In this document: positions 7,220 through 12,159 of the stretch, one piece after another | Layout of the letters: each line of letters opens with the position of its first letter | How positions within the stretch are numbered: the stretch's first letter is position 1 | From: Nitrospira sp. | GTDB taxonomy: Bacteria > Nitrospirota > Nitrospiria > Nitrospirales > Nitrospiraceae | Length of the DNA: 64,000 bases | Direction: 5' to 3' | NCBI GenBank assembly: GCA_035968315.1 | Contig: JAVYIN010000007.1 | Coordinates: 218,996-282,995, forward strand | The notes under the pieces: model-generated | What the model saw: the letters and a program-made list of their open reading frames with translations, nothing else | Databases searched by the model: none | What the model was told of the DNA's origin: nothing | Made by a program: the position numbers and the translations under genes

Positions 7220-8473
7220 TTGTATCGCAAGCTCATTCTGGATAACGGGATCCGCTTGGTCAGCGAGCGGATCCCGACTCTCAAGTCCGTCACGGTCGGC
7301 ATGTGGGTGAATGCCGGATCCCGCGACGAACAACCCTCGCAAGCCGGGTACTCTCATTTCATCGAACATATGTTTTTCAAAGGCACGGCCACCCGGTCGG
7401 CCACGGACATCTCCCGCGAGATCGACGCGTTGGGTGGAGAGTTAAACGCCTTCACGACGCGTGAGACGACGACATTCTACGTCAAAGTGCTCGATCAGCA
7501 TCTCTCGCAGGCGCTGGCGCTGCTCTCCGATCTCTTCCACCACTCCCGATTCGGCGCCAAGGAAATCGAAAAAGAAAAGCAGGTCGTGATCGAAGAGATC
7601 CGGATGGTGCAGGATGATCCGGAAGATCTCGTGCAGGACCTGCATACCAGCCAGGTGATGGGCGCGCATCCGCTCGGCAGGCCGATTTTGGGCGAGGAAG
7701 CGGTCATCGGTTCCCTGCGGCGGCACGACCTGCTCGACTACATGGCTATGCATTACCGGCCTCAGGATATTGTGATTGCGGTGGCGGGGAGTTTCGATCA
7801 GCGCCGTTTGGAGCAGATCATCGTGCGGGAGTTCGACCGCCGAGGGCGCGTGGATACGATGGCCGCGCCGCCTCGCCGATCGCCGGAGATCCATGGTGGC
7901 GTCGTGCTGCAGCGCAAGCAGCTGGAGCAGGTGCATCTCTGCATCGGACTCAAGGGAGTTGCTGCCGGCCATAAAGACCGGTATGCCCTCTATGTGTTGA
8001 ATAGTATTTTGGGCGGCAGTGTGAGTTCCCGGCTCTTTCAAGAAGTCAGGGAAAAGCGCGGCTTGGCCTACTCCATCTATTCCTATCTGTCTGGCTATTC
8101 CGATGGCGGAACTGTGACGGTCTATGCCGGAACCAGGCAGAAGGAAGTGGAGCGGGTGGTGGAACTGATTCGCCGCGAAATCCGGAGTATGGCAAAAAAA
8201 GGGATCACTCGCGACGAGTTGCGCCGGACGAAGGATCAGATGAAGGGCAGCCTCATGCTGAGCCTGGAGAGTTCGCACAGCCGCATGAATAAGCTGGCCA
8301 AGGATGAACTGATCAAAGGCGTGCATACCACCTTGGATCACATGATTCGCGATATCGATGCGGTGACAATGAAGCAAGTTAGTCGAGTGGCGGAAGAACT
8401 ATTCGACGAAAACACGCTCGCGATTACTGGACTGGGGCCACTTTCTCAGCAGCAAATCCGGCATCTAAGATGA
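7220..8473 (+). CDS. M16-family zinc metallopeptidase (mitochondrial processing peptidase-like)
   Basis: A 417-residue insulinase-type peptidase. The inverted zinc motif HFIEH is at 46-50 and the downstream Glu pair (VIEEIRM) is at 125-126. The C-terminal half carries GLAYSIYSYLSGYSDGG, typical of the second M16 domain, so this is a full-length active-looking copy. It probably starts at TTG 7220, since no ATG precedes the conserved YRKLILDNGIRLVSE. A pnp-M16 pair is common in bacteria; YmxG in Bacillus is the usual analogue. Substrate unknown. Confidence 0.92.
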   Translation: MYRKLILDNGIRLVSERIPTLKSVTVGMWVNAGSRDEQPSQAGYSHFIEHMFFKGTATRSATDISREIDALGGELNAFTTRETTTFYVKVLDQHLSQALALLSDLFHHSRFGAKEIEKEKQVVIEEIRMVQDDPEDLVQDLHTSQVMGAHPLGRPILGEEAVIGSLRRHDLLDYMAMHYRPQDIVIAVAGSFDQRRLEQIIVREFDRRGRVDTMAAPPRRSPEIHGGVVLQRKQLEQVHLCIGLKGVAAGHKDRYALYVLNSILGGSVSSRLFQEVREKRGLAYSIYSYLSGYSDGGTVTVYAGTRQKEVERVVELIRREIRSMAKKGITRDELRRTKDQMKGSLMLSLESSHSRMNKLAKDELIKGVHTTLDHMIRDIDAVTMKQVSRVAEELFDENTLAITGLGPLSQQQIRHLR

Positions 8474-8594
8474 GAGTTTTTTAATGGGCGAGTTATATTA
8501 GAAAGGTTGCAGGGCTCAAGAATACATCATACATCGTTGTTATTATTTATATTTATCTGTGGATTGCAAATTTTAATCTTCGTGAAACAATCCC

Positions 8595-8623
8595 TTGACT
8601 CTCATGTGCCGATTCAGTAACAT
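8595..8623 (+). promoter_or_regulatory. Sigma70-type promoter for the exported-protein pair
   Basis: TTGACT (8595-8600), a 17-base spacer and TAACAT (8618-8623) fit a housekeeping promoter. It lies in an unusually AT-rich 270-base gap and would give a leader of about 115 bases before the ATG at 8747. No other strong candidate is visible in the gap. Confidence 0.6.
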
Positions 8624-8746
8624 TGCCACGTTTTCGTGATACTCCGATATGAATGAGCAAAATCCGTATTTATTCGGTTGTGCTGAATTCATCGTCATCA
8701 ACGTAAAGGTTCAGAGGTTGTTAACTTTATGAAGGAGGGACTAGGT

Positions 8747-9256
8747 ATGAAGAGGGTCGTAGTTCTAGCCGCCGTTGCAGTGTTTTCTGTTCTCGGCTTG
8801 CTAGCGGCCGAATTTGCCGTAGCCGCCGATGCCCCAGCTGGGGGTGGTCCTGCCACCGACGTTGTCGGAGGCAGAGTCTTGAAGGGCGAAGCCGCCAAGA
8901 CGCTTCAGGGCCGTGTCTGGTCACAGTGGGCCGACAATCCAGACGGAGAGCTCTTGTTCGGAATTCAGTATTGGAACACCGGGGATCCTGCTTCAGGGAC
9001 TCCTGCCGGCCGTTCTTCAACGATGATGGATGTGAAGCCGCCGGATCCTTTGGTGACCTGCTGCGGATGGGGCTTTGTGGGCGGGACCGATAAGAACAAT
9101 GCGTATGCCGGCTGGTACCATGCCGCGACGACGGTTCGTTTGGCTGTGAAGGACAAGGCGTTGATGGACCAGATCATCAAGGCTGCGCAGGAACTCGTAG
9201 CCATGGAAGTGACTTTGGATGGCCGGACGATTACCGGTTTCAAGGTCCTCAAGTAA
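8747..9256 (+). CDS. Exported protein of unknown function
   Basis: I do not recognise this 169-residue protein. The ATG at 8747 is chosen because a strong GGAGG (8734-8738) lies at correct spacing; an in-frame ATG at 8729 would put the site inside the gene. The N-terminus (MKRVVVLAAVAVFSVLGLLA) is a clear Sec signal peptide, cleaved probably near AVAADA. The mature part has a vicinal Cys pair (LVTCCGWGF), several Trp/Gly/Tyr motifs and no obvious metal motif. It is the first gene of a two-gene unit with its own promoter and terminator. Confidence 0.8.
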   Translation: MKRVVVLAAVAVFSVLGLLAAEFAVAADAPAGGGPATDVVGGRVLKGEAAKTLQGRVWSQWADNPDGELLFGIQYWNTGDPASGTPAGRSSTMMDVKPPDPLVTCCGWGFVGGTDKNNAYAGWYHAATTVRLAVKDKALMDQIIKAAQELVAMEVTLDGRTITGFKVLK

Positions 9257-9307
9257 TCGATATCATCACGCTATCATTCTTTCATGTTGTTGAAGGAGGA
9301 TTCGATT

Positions 9308-9976
9308 ATGAAGCTTCAGAAGCAGGGCGGGGCCATTTTGGCAGCCGTTGCGCTGGTAGTCGGCATGGCTTCCACCGCATTGGCCATCGAAGCATTTCAG
9401 GAACGGTTTGAGTGGGGAGATATGAGCAAGCCCACGACGATCACCGGTCGGGTGATTGTGCTCGATCATTATGATGAAGCGGTCTGGATCAACGTCGCGG
9501 TGTTCGGCGGCAACGCCGAGAGCGGCCTCTGGTGGCAGAAAGTTCATCCGGGCAAGACCTTGAAGTTCTATGCTGACAAGGGTGCCTGGGAAGAGCTGAA
9601 GAAGATGGGCCGTCCGCATGCGGGCCCTGCCGCTGCCAAGGAAGTGCCTCCGGGCAGCACCACCGATCTGATCGAGTTTGTCGCGACGGAAACCGAGCAG
9701 AACCACCGGGTGATCTCTTCCGTGAAGCGGCTTCCGGAAGTGGCCGGTGCTCCTGGCAAGACGCTCAGCATCTCTGCGCTCCGCTTGAAGGAGTGCCAGG
9801 GGAAGAGCCAGGCTGATGCTGGTTGCGCCGCAGCGGTGCAACAGCTCAACACCTCGCCCAAGTCTCCGGATGGAGCGAGCTTGGCGCAGCAGTATGATGT
9901 GATGGCACCAGGCGGGCAGACCTTCGGTGGTTTGATTCCCTGGGAGGCGAAGTACAATTTGCCGGGCGGTCACTGA
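9308..9976 (+). CDS. Exported protein of unknown function
   Basis: A 222-residue protein I do not recognise. AAGGAGG a few bases before ATG 9308 fixes the start. The signal peptide runs to about ASTALA. The mature protein begins IEAFQERFEWGDMSKPTTIT, followed by a short beta-rich stretch (GRVIVLDHYDEAVWINVAVF). It has two Cys (KECQGKSQADAGC) that could form a disulfide. Co-transcribed with the preceding exported gene and followed directly by a strong terminator; high-quality ribosome sites in both genes suggest abundant products. Function cannot be assigned. Confidence 0.8.
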   Translation: MKLQKQGGAILAAVALVVGMASTALAIEAFQERFEWGDMSKPTTITGRVIVLDHYDEAVWINVAVFGGNAESGLWWQKVHPGKTLKFYADKGAWEELKKMGRPHAGPAAAKEVPPGSTTDLIEFVATETEQNHRVISSVKRLPEVAGAPGKTLSISALRLKECQGKSQADAGCAAAVQQLNTSPKSPDGASLAQQYDVMAPGGQTFGGLIPWEAKYNLPGGH

Positions 9977-9996
9977 TCTAGTTTCTGTGTGATGAA

Positions 9997-10037
9997 GAGG
10001 CGGTCACTCCTTGTGGGGTGACCGCCTCTTTCTTTTT
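9997..10037 (+). terminator. Rho-independent terminator
   Basis: A 14-bp stem (GAGGCGGTCACTCC with GGGGTGACCGCCTC, one G-T pair) closes a 4-base TTGT loop and is followed by TTTCTTTTT. It ends the two-gene exported-protein unit and separates it from the convergent minus-strand genes. Confidence 0.93.
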
Positions 10038-10088: not shown

Positions 10089-10754
10089 TCAGTTCTTTTG
10101 GCGTGGGGGTTTATTAACCGTGAATAGGACGAGCCCTGCGAGGAGCCCGCTGACGCCGATCACGATAGTGCTCATTGTGCGAAGCTGATGGTCTGCTTCG
10201 TCCCGCACTTCTCCCGCAATCCTTTCGACCACTTCCAGTAATTGATCCAGCTCGAGCGTTACGTCGATAAATTGTGTTCCGCCTTGCTCCGCTGCATTCT
10301 CCTCCGCAACATCCCGCAGGCGGTGTGCCTCGATTGGCGATGTCGTCTCCCAGCGCCGCTGAATCAGCCGAATCGTCTGTTCGGAAGTGGCCATGTAATC
10401 AGCGAGGCGTGTTTTGACGGCCTGGAGTTCGCGCAGCTCGTCCGCAGTCCCGCCTCGACGGGCTGTAGCCCCGTCGGAGGCCTTGATGAATCGGTTGATA
10501 GTCTGTTCGATCACCGACCGTCGTTGTGGCAATGCGGAGGCAATAGCCTGGAATTCCTTCTGCGAGCCGGCCTCAATCGCGCGCAGGACTGACGTCCGAT
10601 AGCGGATCAGTTTGGCATTGATGTGCCCGAGATCGGTGGTGGCGAGGGTGTACTCCGCATAGATGACGCGGAGTTCCTGATCCACCTGGATGAGCGAGTA
10701 GCCGCCCCAGAGACCGGCCGCCATGATGAGCAAGCTGATGAGAATGTGCCGCAT
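10089..10754 (-). CDS. Membrane protein with periplasmic four-helix-bundle-like domain
   Basis: 221 residues. A transmembrane helix at about 4-21 (LISLLIMAAGLWGGYSLIQV) and another near 193-210 (TIVIGVSGLLAGLVLFTV) enclose a ~165-residue helical, heptad-rich region. This topology resembles the ligand-binding four-helix-bundle domains of chemoreceptors and histidine kinases, but no HAMP, MCP or kinase part follows: the protein stops 10 residues after the second helix. It could be a stand-alone sensor or partner of another protein. The lipoprotein gene upstream is 76 bases away on the same strand. Confidence 0.75.
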   Translation of the reverse strand: MRHILISLLIMAAGLWGGYSLIQVDQELRVIYAEYTLATTDLGHINAKLIRYRTSVLRAIEAGSQKEFQAIASALPQRRSVIEQTINRFIKASDGATARRGGTADELRELQAVKTRLADYMATSEQTIRLIQRRWETTSPIEAHRLRDVAEENAAEQGGTQFIDVTLELDQLLEVVERIAGEVRDEADHQLRTMSTIVIGVSGLLAGLVLFTVNKPPRQKN

Positions 10755-10830
10755 GTCTTCACGATACAGAAGCCAGAGAGAGGCCTCACTGGGCCAGGGA
10801 GCGGCAAGGGCTGCGCGTGAAGCCCGGATG

Positions 10831-11454
10831 CTATTTCAGGCGAATCATCCGTCCTTCAATTCTGAGATCTCCGATCAGCTTCTGGAAATTCTTCTCGAAC
10901 AGTTCATCGGTCAAGCGCTGGGCATCGGTCGGCTCGAACCAGAAAACTTGATCGCTGCCCGATCCGGAGACCCGTTCACGGACGACACTCTCGTCCGCAT
11001 GATTCGCGATCTGAAATTTCATCGAATTCTTCGCCGTCAGATCGGTATGCATAAATCCGCTTGTCGCATCGATGGACAGATCCTGAATCGTGCCGGTGAT
11101 CGTAATATCGGCCCCCTCGCTTCCTACGGTGCGAGCAAGTGAGGCTTTCCAGCCCTGCCGGTTCAAATAGTCGACGAGGGCTTGCGATGCGGCCCGTGGA
11201 ACGGTGCCGCTCGGCAGGTCGAAATAACTGACCCCTCCCCAAAGGTGGGACCGCATTCCAAGGTGCGCCTGGTTGGCCCGTTGATCGTCGAAGGGGAGCA
11301 CCGCGATCCGGGGGCCATTTACGGTCGTGGAAGCCATTCGTTCCCCTGCGCCTGTTCCTGGAATCAGGACATCGATACGTTCGCCTTTGCCGGCACAGCC
11401 TGCAACCATGATGATTCCCAGTACAGAGAAAAGCAGCACCTTAGAACGAACCAC
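10831..11454 (-). CDS. Outer-membrane lipoprotein of unknown function
   Basis: 207 residues with a type II signal peptide (VLGIIMVAGCAGKG; lipobox VAGC). The mature part contains RIAVLPFDDQRANQAHLG and SQALVDYLNRQGWKASLA. This layout is seen in YajG/DUF4136-like lipoproteins and in proteins of the CsgG/TolB-N type fold that begin with a VLPF-D strand. I would not give a specific name. It lies 51 bases downstream of the Pal-like gene on the same strand, suggesting an envelope operon. Confidence 0.75.
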   Translation of the reverse strand: MVRSKVLLFSVLGIIMVAGCAGKGERIDVLIPGTGAGERMASTTVNGPRIAVLPFDDQRANQAHLGMRSHLWGGVSYFDLPSGTVPRAASQALVDYLNRQGWKASLARTVGSEGADITITGTIQDLSIDATSGFMHTDLTAKNSMKFQIANHADESVVRERVSGSGSDQVFWFEPTDAQRLTDELFEKNFQKLIGDLRIEGRMIRLK

Positions 11455-11505
11455 GGCAACCTCCTTCCGATATGAAGCCTGCTCGCCAAATAAATTCAGC
11501 GGGAG

Positions 11506-12159
11506 CTATTGGATAACGAAATGAGCACGGCGATTGTATTTCCAGCATCCTTCATTGTGCTCTTTGCAGAAAGGTTTGACCTCGCCATAGCTGGTGGTTA
11601 GCAGCCGGGCCGCCGGGACTCCGAGATCCTCCAGGTAGCGTTTGGCCGCCTTGGCGCGTTTCTCGCCAAGTACCAAATTGTAGGCCAGGGTGCCACGCTC
11701 GTCACAATGCCCTTCGATCAAGAAGGATTTTCCCGATTCATTTTTGATCCAGCTCGCATTCCGTTCCAGAACGGGTTGGGCGTCGCGGCGGATCGCATAT
11801 TGGTCGAAGTCAAAGAAGATGTCTCCCGGGCTGGTAAAGTCCGGAGCATTGGAGGCGGAGGGAGAAACTGGAGAAGGGGCTGACCCGCGACTTGGTAAGG
11901 GACTGCTGCCTGGAGTTGCGGGCCCACTGAACGATGCTCTTGAATTAGGCGCTCGGCTATCCCCGTTTGCGGCTGGTGTCGTGAGTGAGGCGATCGGTTC
12001 TTGACGGACGGTTTCGGCCGCCTCATTCCCCTTGGTTGTCATGGATTGGTCGCCGGATCCAGAGGTGACCTGCCGGCTAGCGCAGCCTTCCCCTCCGATG
12101 AGAACCGATAGACAACCGATCATGGTTCCGAACACGATTACCGCTCGGCATGGCGACAT
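11506..12159 (-). CDS. pal: OmpA/Pal-family peptidoglycan-associated lipoprotein
   Basis: 217 residues. The last ~110 form an OmpA-like peptidoglycan-binding domain: FFDFDQYAIRRDAQPVLERN, IEGHCDERGTLAYNLVLGEK, then RAKAAKRYLEDLG, the Pal signature. A Ser/Pro/Ala-rich linker joins this to an N-terminal hydrophobic segment ending in GGEGC. The lipobox is poor (Gly at -3), so lipidation is probable rather than certain. Tail residues include extra Cys (FCKEHNEGCWKYNRR), as in many Pal proteins. No tolA/tolB are adjacent, so Tol-Pal membership rests on the domain only. Confidence 0.85.
   Translation of the reverse strand: MSPCRAVIVFGTMIGCLSVLIGGEGCASRQVTSGSGDQSMTTKGNEAAETVRQEPIASLTTPAANGDSRAPNSRASFSGPATPGSSPLPSRGSAPSPVSPSASNAPDFTSPGDIFFDFDQYAIRRDAQPVLERNASWIKNESGKSFLIEGHCDERGTLAYNLVLGEKRAKAAKRYLEDLGVPAARLLTTSYGEVKPFCKEHNEGCWKYNRRAHFVIQ

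Follow-up and report, generated by a model that had tools for sequence, protein, structure and literature searches.

What are the two exported proteins encoded by a compact two-gene unit of Nitrospira, and which process do they serve? The unit lies at 8595-10037 of the window, by which we mean the whole stretch of 64,000 nucleotides analysed here (G000:C7:218996-282995; the assembly of this genome, G000, has 3.11 Mb and is 99.97% complete). A preliminary description, drawn from the sequence, had proposed at this place a self-contained unit likely to be highly expressed, coding for two exported proteins of no recognisable family, which we call P1 and P2. The reading that we favour, at a probability of roughly 0.48, is that of a two-gene operon of Sec-exported, single-domain OB-fold proteins which would act in the periplasm as a non-catalytic binding or assembly factor, nitrite oxidation being the likeliest process served.

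The extent of the unit was confirmed: it is a complete transcription unit with a promoter, two genes and a terminator (Table 1), and as a single unit it fills the gap between the gene of an M16 peptidase (named by eye; end at 8473) and a convergent open reading frame (10089-10754, minus strand). The promoter and the strong ribosome sites before both genes were found as described, and so was the AT-rich character of the upstream DNA, G+C content being 0.41 at 8400-8799 versus 0.53-0.66 in most adjacent intervals. The ATG triplets at 8729 and 9284, given as starts in the list of open reading frames, are upstream codons; the spacing from AAGGAGG fits starts at 8747 and 9308. The terminator is real as well, its stem being longer than the 14 bp first reported.

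Table 1. Features of the P1-P2 transcription unit (positions in the window)
Feature	Position	Strand	Remarks
Sigma-70-type promoter TTGACT-N17-TAACAT	8595-8623	+	TTCAG immediately 5′ of the -10 element
5′ leader (transcription start inferred)	8624-8746	+	includes P1 ribosome site AAGGAGG, 8732-8738
P1 gene, exported protein of 169 aa	8747-9256	+	coding 8747-9253, stop to 9256
P2 ribosome site AAGGAGG	9293-9299	+	
P2 gene, exported protein of 222 aa	9308-9976	+	coding 9308-9973, stop to 9976
Intrinsic terminator, 17-pair stem, 4-nt loop, T-rich tail	9994-10037	+	stem 9994-10031

The same layout is found in the relatives. Homologues were taken from 80 named contigs and from 34 stretches of other genomes; frames with both ends inside the locus were obtained for P1 in 107 loci and for P2 in 112, a few genomes having been fetched twice, and correspond to 103 and 110 distinct proteins. 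Two P1 frames are short (L076, 133 aa; L123, 115 aa). A promoter of the type TTGAC[AT]-N17/18-TANNNT is present within 330 bases 5′ of P1 in all 107 upstream regions (the window plus 106 loci), which comprise 104 distinct sequences; in 100 first-order Markov sets derived from these regions the count averaged 0.75 and never exceeded 5, and the opposite strand had no occurrence. As the motif was defined after viewing the sequences, these controls gauge its rarity and are no independent test. The -35 element is exactly TTGACA in 99 of the 107 regions, the spacer is of 17 in 100, and the TTTCAG preceding the -10 element is strongly conserved. Both genes lie on the same strand in 107/107 loci, separated by 5-119 bp (median, 53 bp), with an SD-like sequence 5′ of P2 in 105 of 112. 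Of 111 loci, 102 have a terminator 3′ of P2 (Markov control, 1/111), and none of 107 loci has one between the two genes.

We also looked for the promoter architecture in ten genomes. Allowing at most one mismatch, 28 matches were obtained in nine of them and none in the remaining one, the reversed-pattern control giving zero in all ten. The open reading frames 3′ of these sites, named by eye, are the P1-P2 pair (8 sites), a very large exported protein (8), GAPDH (2) and others (10); the latter include pyrR-like and dehydratase-like frames, for which the link between site and gene is uncertain. Judged from these sequences, the P1-P2 promoter looks like a strong general one. That promoters of its class also precede GAPDH and pyrR-like genes (by eye), so that it looks constitutive and not nitrite-specific, favours another reading: P1 and P2 could be general envelope proteins of the lineage, engaged for instance in stress or cell-wall binding, without any link to nitrite oxidation. 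We regard this alternative as tentative, yet as one to be taken seriously.

The genomic distribution bears directly on it. A sample of 395 genomes of the phylum was searched at E ≤ 0.01, and P1 was matched in 137 and P2 in 139. When the spread is broken down, as the preliminary description had suggested, it takes in most of the sampled Nitrospirales (136 of 143 genomes for P1, 138 for P2), and the 252 genomes outside the order gave only one match each (P1, E 7.6e-4; P2, E 3.0e-4). Both were counted as chance: they are weak, contain a stop, and the P1 and P2 profiles find nothing there. Within what was searched the pair is restricted to three families of the order, f1, f2 and f3; it was found in none of the three genomes of family f4 (G308, G350 and G354, all drafts). 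Elsewhere in the order, two drafts, G254 and G268, assembled into about 140 and 270 contigs, have neither gene and two other drafts (G278 and G336) are short of P1 only. Candidate scoring in the genome searches was limited (to three per genome for NxrA), and these absences are provisional. P1 was searched within the phylum; outside Nitrospirota, P2 was followed by a scan of named genome contigs for exact peptide patterns and by a search of plasmids. The scan confirmed 139 relatives, and the 80 listed bear Nitrospira, Nitrospiraceae, Nitrospirae or Nitrospirota titles with the exception of two named 'uncultured Nitrosospira' (L087 and L130), which we take to be mislabelled. Plasmids gave no P2 match.

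Not only the lineage but also the chromosomal place of the pair is largely constant. Each of 34 diverse loci has P1 followed by P2 on one strand; truB-rpsO-pnp-M16 lies upstream in 30 of them, and a convergent mutS lies downstream in 33, several genes intervening in the window. Of the f3 loci, all three have retained mutS and a single one M16 as well, while L160 gave no M16 match and L143 ends before mutS. The place of the downstream convergent genes (10089-12159) is far less conserved than that of the pair: the window genes at 10089-10754 and 10831-12159, both on the minus strand, found a counterpart in one of the nine nearest loci, and the groups farther away gave none. Among these genes, a Pal/OmpA-like lipoprotein (by eye) is encoded at 11506-12159.

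Both genes are under strong purifying selection. Compared with seven close loci, dN/dS amounts to 0.036-0.092 for P1 and 0.065-0.167 for P2, and because of these low values we consider both to be real genes. G000 holds a single match for each. The conservation of P1 exceeds that of the M16 peptidase at 91 of 98 loci and that of mutS at 77 of 93; it exceeds that of pnp at only 4 of 94 and that of rpsO at only 2 of 94. The high expression that had been anticipated is unproven. Codon adaptation (0.687 for P1, 0.751 for P2) was rejected as a proxy, being uninformative in this organism, since 15 ribosomal-protein genes (0.66-0.77) are not separated from the 48 open reading frames of the window (mean 0.717). 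In N. moscoviensis a 'conserved exported protein', NITMOv2_2496, is highly transcribed, according to the accessible portion of PMC6606698; it is a candidate for identity with P1 or P2. From the listings of the literature on Nitrospira, no paper could be recognised as describing the pair, which is not mentioned in the accessible portions of PMC8115632 and PMC5596200 either; for the N. defluvii tags NIDE4060-4119, an interval estimated in part from position, a single paper was listed, on carboxypeptidases.

With respect to export, a predicted signal peptide covers about residues 1-26 in P1 as well as in P2. The preliminary assignment agrees with what is found in the relatives: by simple rules (n-region charge, hydrophobic core, AXA), Sec-type signal peptides were called in 96 of 105 P1 and 109 of 112 P2 homologues. 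A loose lipobox pattern occurs in 0/105 P1 and 5/112 P2 homologues, and a Cys at that position is lacking from both window proteins. The cysteine pairs that had been pointed out do exist in the window proteins, in which Cys105 and Cys106 of P1 and Cys163 and Cys173 of P2 are the only ones, but they are not universal. Cys105-Cys106 is present in 103 of 107 P1 homologues, the exceptions being the short frame L123 and all three f3 loci, L157-L159; beyond residue 30, 94 of 112 P2 homologues have two cysteines, one has four, and the remaining 17, which are the complete set of f2 loci, have none. A disulfide is possible and would be no defining feature.

That neither protein resembles a known family holds as far as sequence is concerned. 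Searches of the window proteins against Pfam, NCBIfam and PDB sequences gave nothing convincing, the best matches being TatA_B_E for P2 (E 0.16, under the cut-off) and one PDB chain for P1 (E 0.22); when the P1 and P2 profiles were compared with the PDB, best E was 0.78 and 0.086, respectively. Scans of 54 P1 and 62 P2 homologues yielded at best CO_deh_flav_C (E 0.0087, 4 of 54 members) and LpqV (E 0.00098, 5 of 62), no family being found in more than 7/54 P1 or 5/62 P2 members; these matches were taken as chance. No enzyme family was recognised in these searches of window proteins and homologues.

The claim has to be qualified at the level of structure. Structure prediction, one of the checks proposed at the outset, gave for both proteins AlphaFold models with the strand order beta-beta-beta-alpha-beta-beta, that of the OB fold, the P1 model being of moderate confidence. 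In the P2 model (mean pLDDT 74.6), strands 43-53, 58-62 and 84-89, helix 91-100 and strands 121-130 and 133-141 build an OB-fold core of residues 43-141, after which a C-terminal extension bears Cys163 and Cys173. In the P1 model (mean pLDDT 64.4, with block means of 86-92 over the last 39 residues) the corresponding elements fall within residues 52-168: strands 52-60, 68-73 and 128-134, helix 137-147 and strands 152-158 and 161-168. Between strands 2 and 3, at about 75-127, P1 carries a long, conserved, Trp/Gly-rich insertion with Cys105-Cys106; this most conserved part of the protein is the least confident region of its model. Both proteins are thus predicted to be single OB-fold domains. 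In the f3 loci, mature P1 starts near the first strand, which suggests the minimal domain.

P2 is qualified further by paralogues. Of 14 genomes searched with its profile, four (G153, G306, G125 and G358; E 9e-7 to 4e-5) yielded short proteins that look exported; the occurrence is patchy, with 4 positives among the 11 searched genomes that carry the pair. These proteins (L215, L216, L217 and L218; 123-165 aa) share with P2 an OB core of the type TTIxGRVxxLDxYDEAxWIxW and an N-terminal hydrophobic segment, but have neither its full FQERFEWGD segment nor its C-terminal extension. The P1 profile found no further relative below E 0.1, and P1 and P2 profiles resemble each other weakly (hhalign, probability 26%, E 7e-4).

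The solved structure closest to both models is SilF. With Foldseek it is the top match of P2 (E 0.0016) and of P1 (E 0.074), none reaching E ≤ 0.001; with VIA, for which models that lack a clear match commonly reach a Z of 7 to 8, it is again on top for P2 (Z 8.6, 76 aligned residues, rmsd 2.8) and for P1 (Z 8.2, 74 aligned, rmsd 3.5). CusF is among the next matches of the P2 model, and most of the other structural matches listed are OB-fold proteins. SilF and CusF are periplasmic carriers of Ag(I)/Cu(I) and, as is predicted for P1 and P2, are exported and consist of a single small OB-fold domain. One or both proteins could accordingly be taken for carriers of this type, delivering copper or silver to the copper enzymes of Nitrospira, and the nearly invariant Cys105, Cys106, M140 and M153 of P1 would suit such a role, as would the occurrence of the promoter architecture in front of the very large exported protein (8 genomes out of 10), which in G000 has multicopper-oxidase domains. 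The metal ligands of CusF are one His and two Met, together with a Trp. In P2, however, Met1 is the sole His, Met or Cys residue among the invariant or nearly invariant positions, P1 has no His at such positions, and the CC of P1 is replaced in the three f3 loci. No sequence match to SilF or CusF is detectable; the CusF family is absent from the Pfam matches of the window proteins at E ≤ 10 and from those of the 54 P1 and 62 P2 homologues at E ≤ 1, and no such PDB sequence was matched. With no conserved His or Met pair, hence no His-Met-Met site, a CusF-like metal site is not supported by the alignments in either protein. The long insertion of P1, the long C-terminal extension of P2 and the pairing of the genes are further differences. 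A fold alone shows no function; the structural matches lend some support to the fold, not to a function, and we consider a role as metal carriers quite improbable.

As to the very large exported protein itself, homologous starts follow the promoter architecture in 8 of the 10 genomes. In G000 it is encoded at L273:1-3930 (minus strand) on G000:C3, with the promoter at G000:C3:253558-253586; it has at least 1310 aa and its multicopper-oxidase domains include Cu-oxidase_3 (E 3.6e-9). A copper connection through this multicopper-oxidase-like protein is, on the shared promoter, only a lead.

The distribution of the pair was compared with that of nitrite oxidoreductase (NXR). The accessible portion of PMC12342949 describes the Nitrospirales as including nitrite-oxidising and complete ammonia-oxidising bacteria, gives UBA2166 as their sole family without NXR, and proposes 140 genes, many of no known function, as diagnostic for the nitrite-oxidising members. 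We infer that f4 is UBA2166, f2 UBA8639 and f3 NS-4. As query we used NxrA of N. defluvii, from G050, in which the P2 coordinates equal those of FP929003.1. At E 1e-20 it was matched in 167 of 196 genomes of the order, with carriers in f1, f2 and f3. A closer look at f4 left NxrA unmatched in G308 and G354 and gave a 28% partial match (E 9e-4) in G350. Within what was searched, the pair hence appears confined to the NXR-carrying families of Nitrospirales, a distribution of the kind for which the 140-gene set was selected, as far as that set is described in the accessible portion of PMC12342949.

The correspondence has exceptions. Ten genomes carry both genes without an NxrA match at E 1e-20 (G009, G043, G108, G110, G167, G220, G294, G344, G346 and G380), and the two drafts devoid of the pair, G254 and G268, contain NxrA pieces. 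In G000, G108 and G294 only NxrA residues 2 to 41-58 were found. Four of these five fragments lie at contig ends and therefore indicate assembly gaps in G000 and G294; that of G108 lies inside its single contig. An initial impression from Pfam that G000 has no NxrA was overturned by its two fragments of residues 2-58, both nxrA starts at contig ends (G000:C8:2-172 and G000:C7:544431-544601), and this genome probably holds at least two nxrA copies broken by assembly. The fragment of G108, a close relative (G108:C1:2215575-2215712), comprises residues 2-47 only; a collapsed assembly or a real loss may lie behind it.

These data can also be read in favour of general envelope proteins, for which the tracking of NXR would mean only that both mark the same group. 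Every carrier belongs to one order, the pair is located among the housekeeping genes rpsO, pnp and mutS and not beside nxr, and there are the ten carriers without NxrA match. On the other hand, the pair is absent from the NXR-less family f4 (0/3, from few drafts), and NxrA is missing from carriers at least partly through assembly gaps. The ten carriers make the periplasmic binding or assembly factor slightly less probable and the lineage-only alternative more so. The co-distribution of pair and NXR could go back to one evolutionary event, the pair having been either gained once or lost in f4, and is suggestive, not proof; since the tie to nitrite oxidation rests on this co-distribution, with its exceptions, the tie is suggestive only.

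In the loci read, the pair is not adjacent to nxr genes. Its distance to an nxrA copy is about 40-115 kb in six single-contig genomes (G147, G187, G145, G202, G250 and G318) and at least 230 kb in seven others for which a full NxrA is listed (G050, G077, G139, G143, G177, G244 and G248); these are plain positions, and related genomes are not independent.

A closer connection with the enzyme would be that of a structural partner of NXR. NXR-T of the anammox organism Kuenenia stuttgartiensis is a haem-bearing NXR subunit that induces NXR tubules, and P1 and P2 might, by analogy, be non-catalytic partners in a comparable role. NxrA is found in broadly the same families as the pair, both P1 and P2 are exported, and the Nitrospira NXR is suggested to be oriented to the periplasm (PMC8387239, accessible portion). 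NXR-T, however, is a haem protein, whereas P1 and P2 have no haem motif (no CXXCH in the window proteins) and no significant PDB sequence match, nor do they match NXR-T in sequence. We hold such a partnership to be highly improbable.

A periplasmic binding or assembly factor remains for us the simplest interpretation, because of the signal peptides, the absence of a recognised enzyme family, the OB barrels and the conserved insertion of P1. Transcribed constitutively from the near-consensus promoter, the two proteins would meet in the periplasm as the two parts of such a factor, without catalysis. The OB barrels would form its core. Contact surfaces, directed to each other or to a third partner, would be offered in P1 by the strongly conserved insertion (W76 N77 ... 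W108 G109 ... G122 W123 Y124) and in P2 by the N-terminal segment FQERFEWGD. The factor would most likely serve the shared periplasmic electron-transfer and nitrite-oxidation apparatus. P1 and P2 probably act together, and are perhaps tied to nitrite oxidation. Mirror-tree analysis over 93 loci was rejected as evidence of an interaction: the partial correlation is 0.64 for P1-P2 and higher, 0.73, for the unrelated control pair pnp-M16.

A bolder version, which we consider unlikely, is an obligate P1-P2 OB-fold complex gained together with NXR by the ancestor of the nitrite-oxidising Nitrospirales, and required for assembling, scaffolding or supplying (for example with copper) the periplasmic apparatus. 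If true, it would add an unrecognised accessory part to Nitrospira-type nitrification; should the pair serve NXR or periplasmic electron flow in any way, it would be a new part in a process of global importance. The pair is tractable, being small, with a conserved promoter, usable models and a presence in almost every genome sampled from three families. The operon is well worth experimental work but is no novel type of system, and the preliminary interpretation is, taken as a whole, partly supported.

A last set of observations concerns the leader, whose length varies from 71 to 260 nt across 107 regions. By a simple pattern, 33 of the 107 leaders contain a mid-leader element consisting of a Shine-Dalgarno-like AAAGGAGGTGGC or AAAGGGGGTGTG core plus a possible stem. 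The observation was made on the window and on the leaders of relatives (L099, L101, L109, L172, L173, L098 and L170); the window, L171 and L063 are without the element. RNAalifold, run on three groups of relatives, made no case for a leader RNA structure. In the window unit Rfam yielded nine matches, of which none came near its gathering score and eight cover the terminator region; the L099 leader gave no match, even at E 5. In the window, the leader contains a frame of 27 codons (8649-8732) whose TGA lies at the border of the P1 ribosome site, and which may possibly encode a leader peptide.
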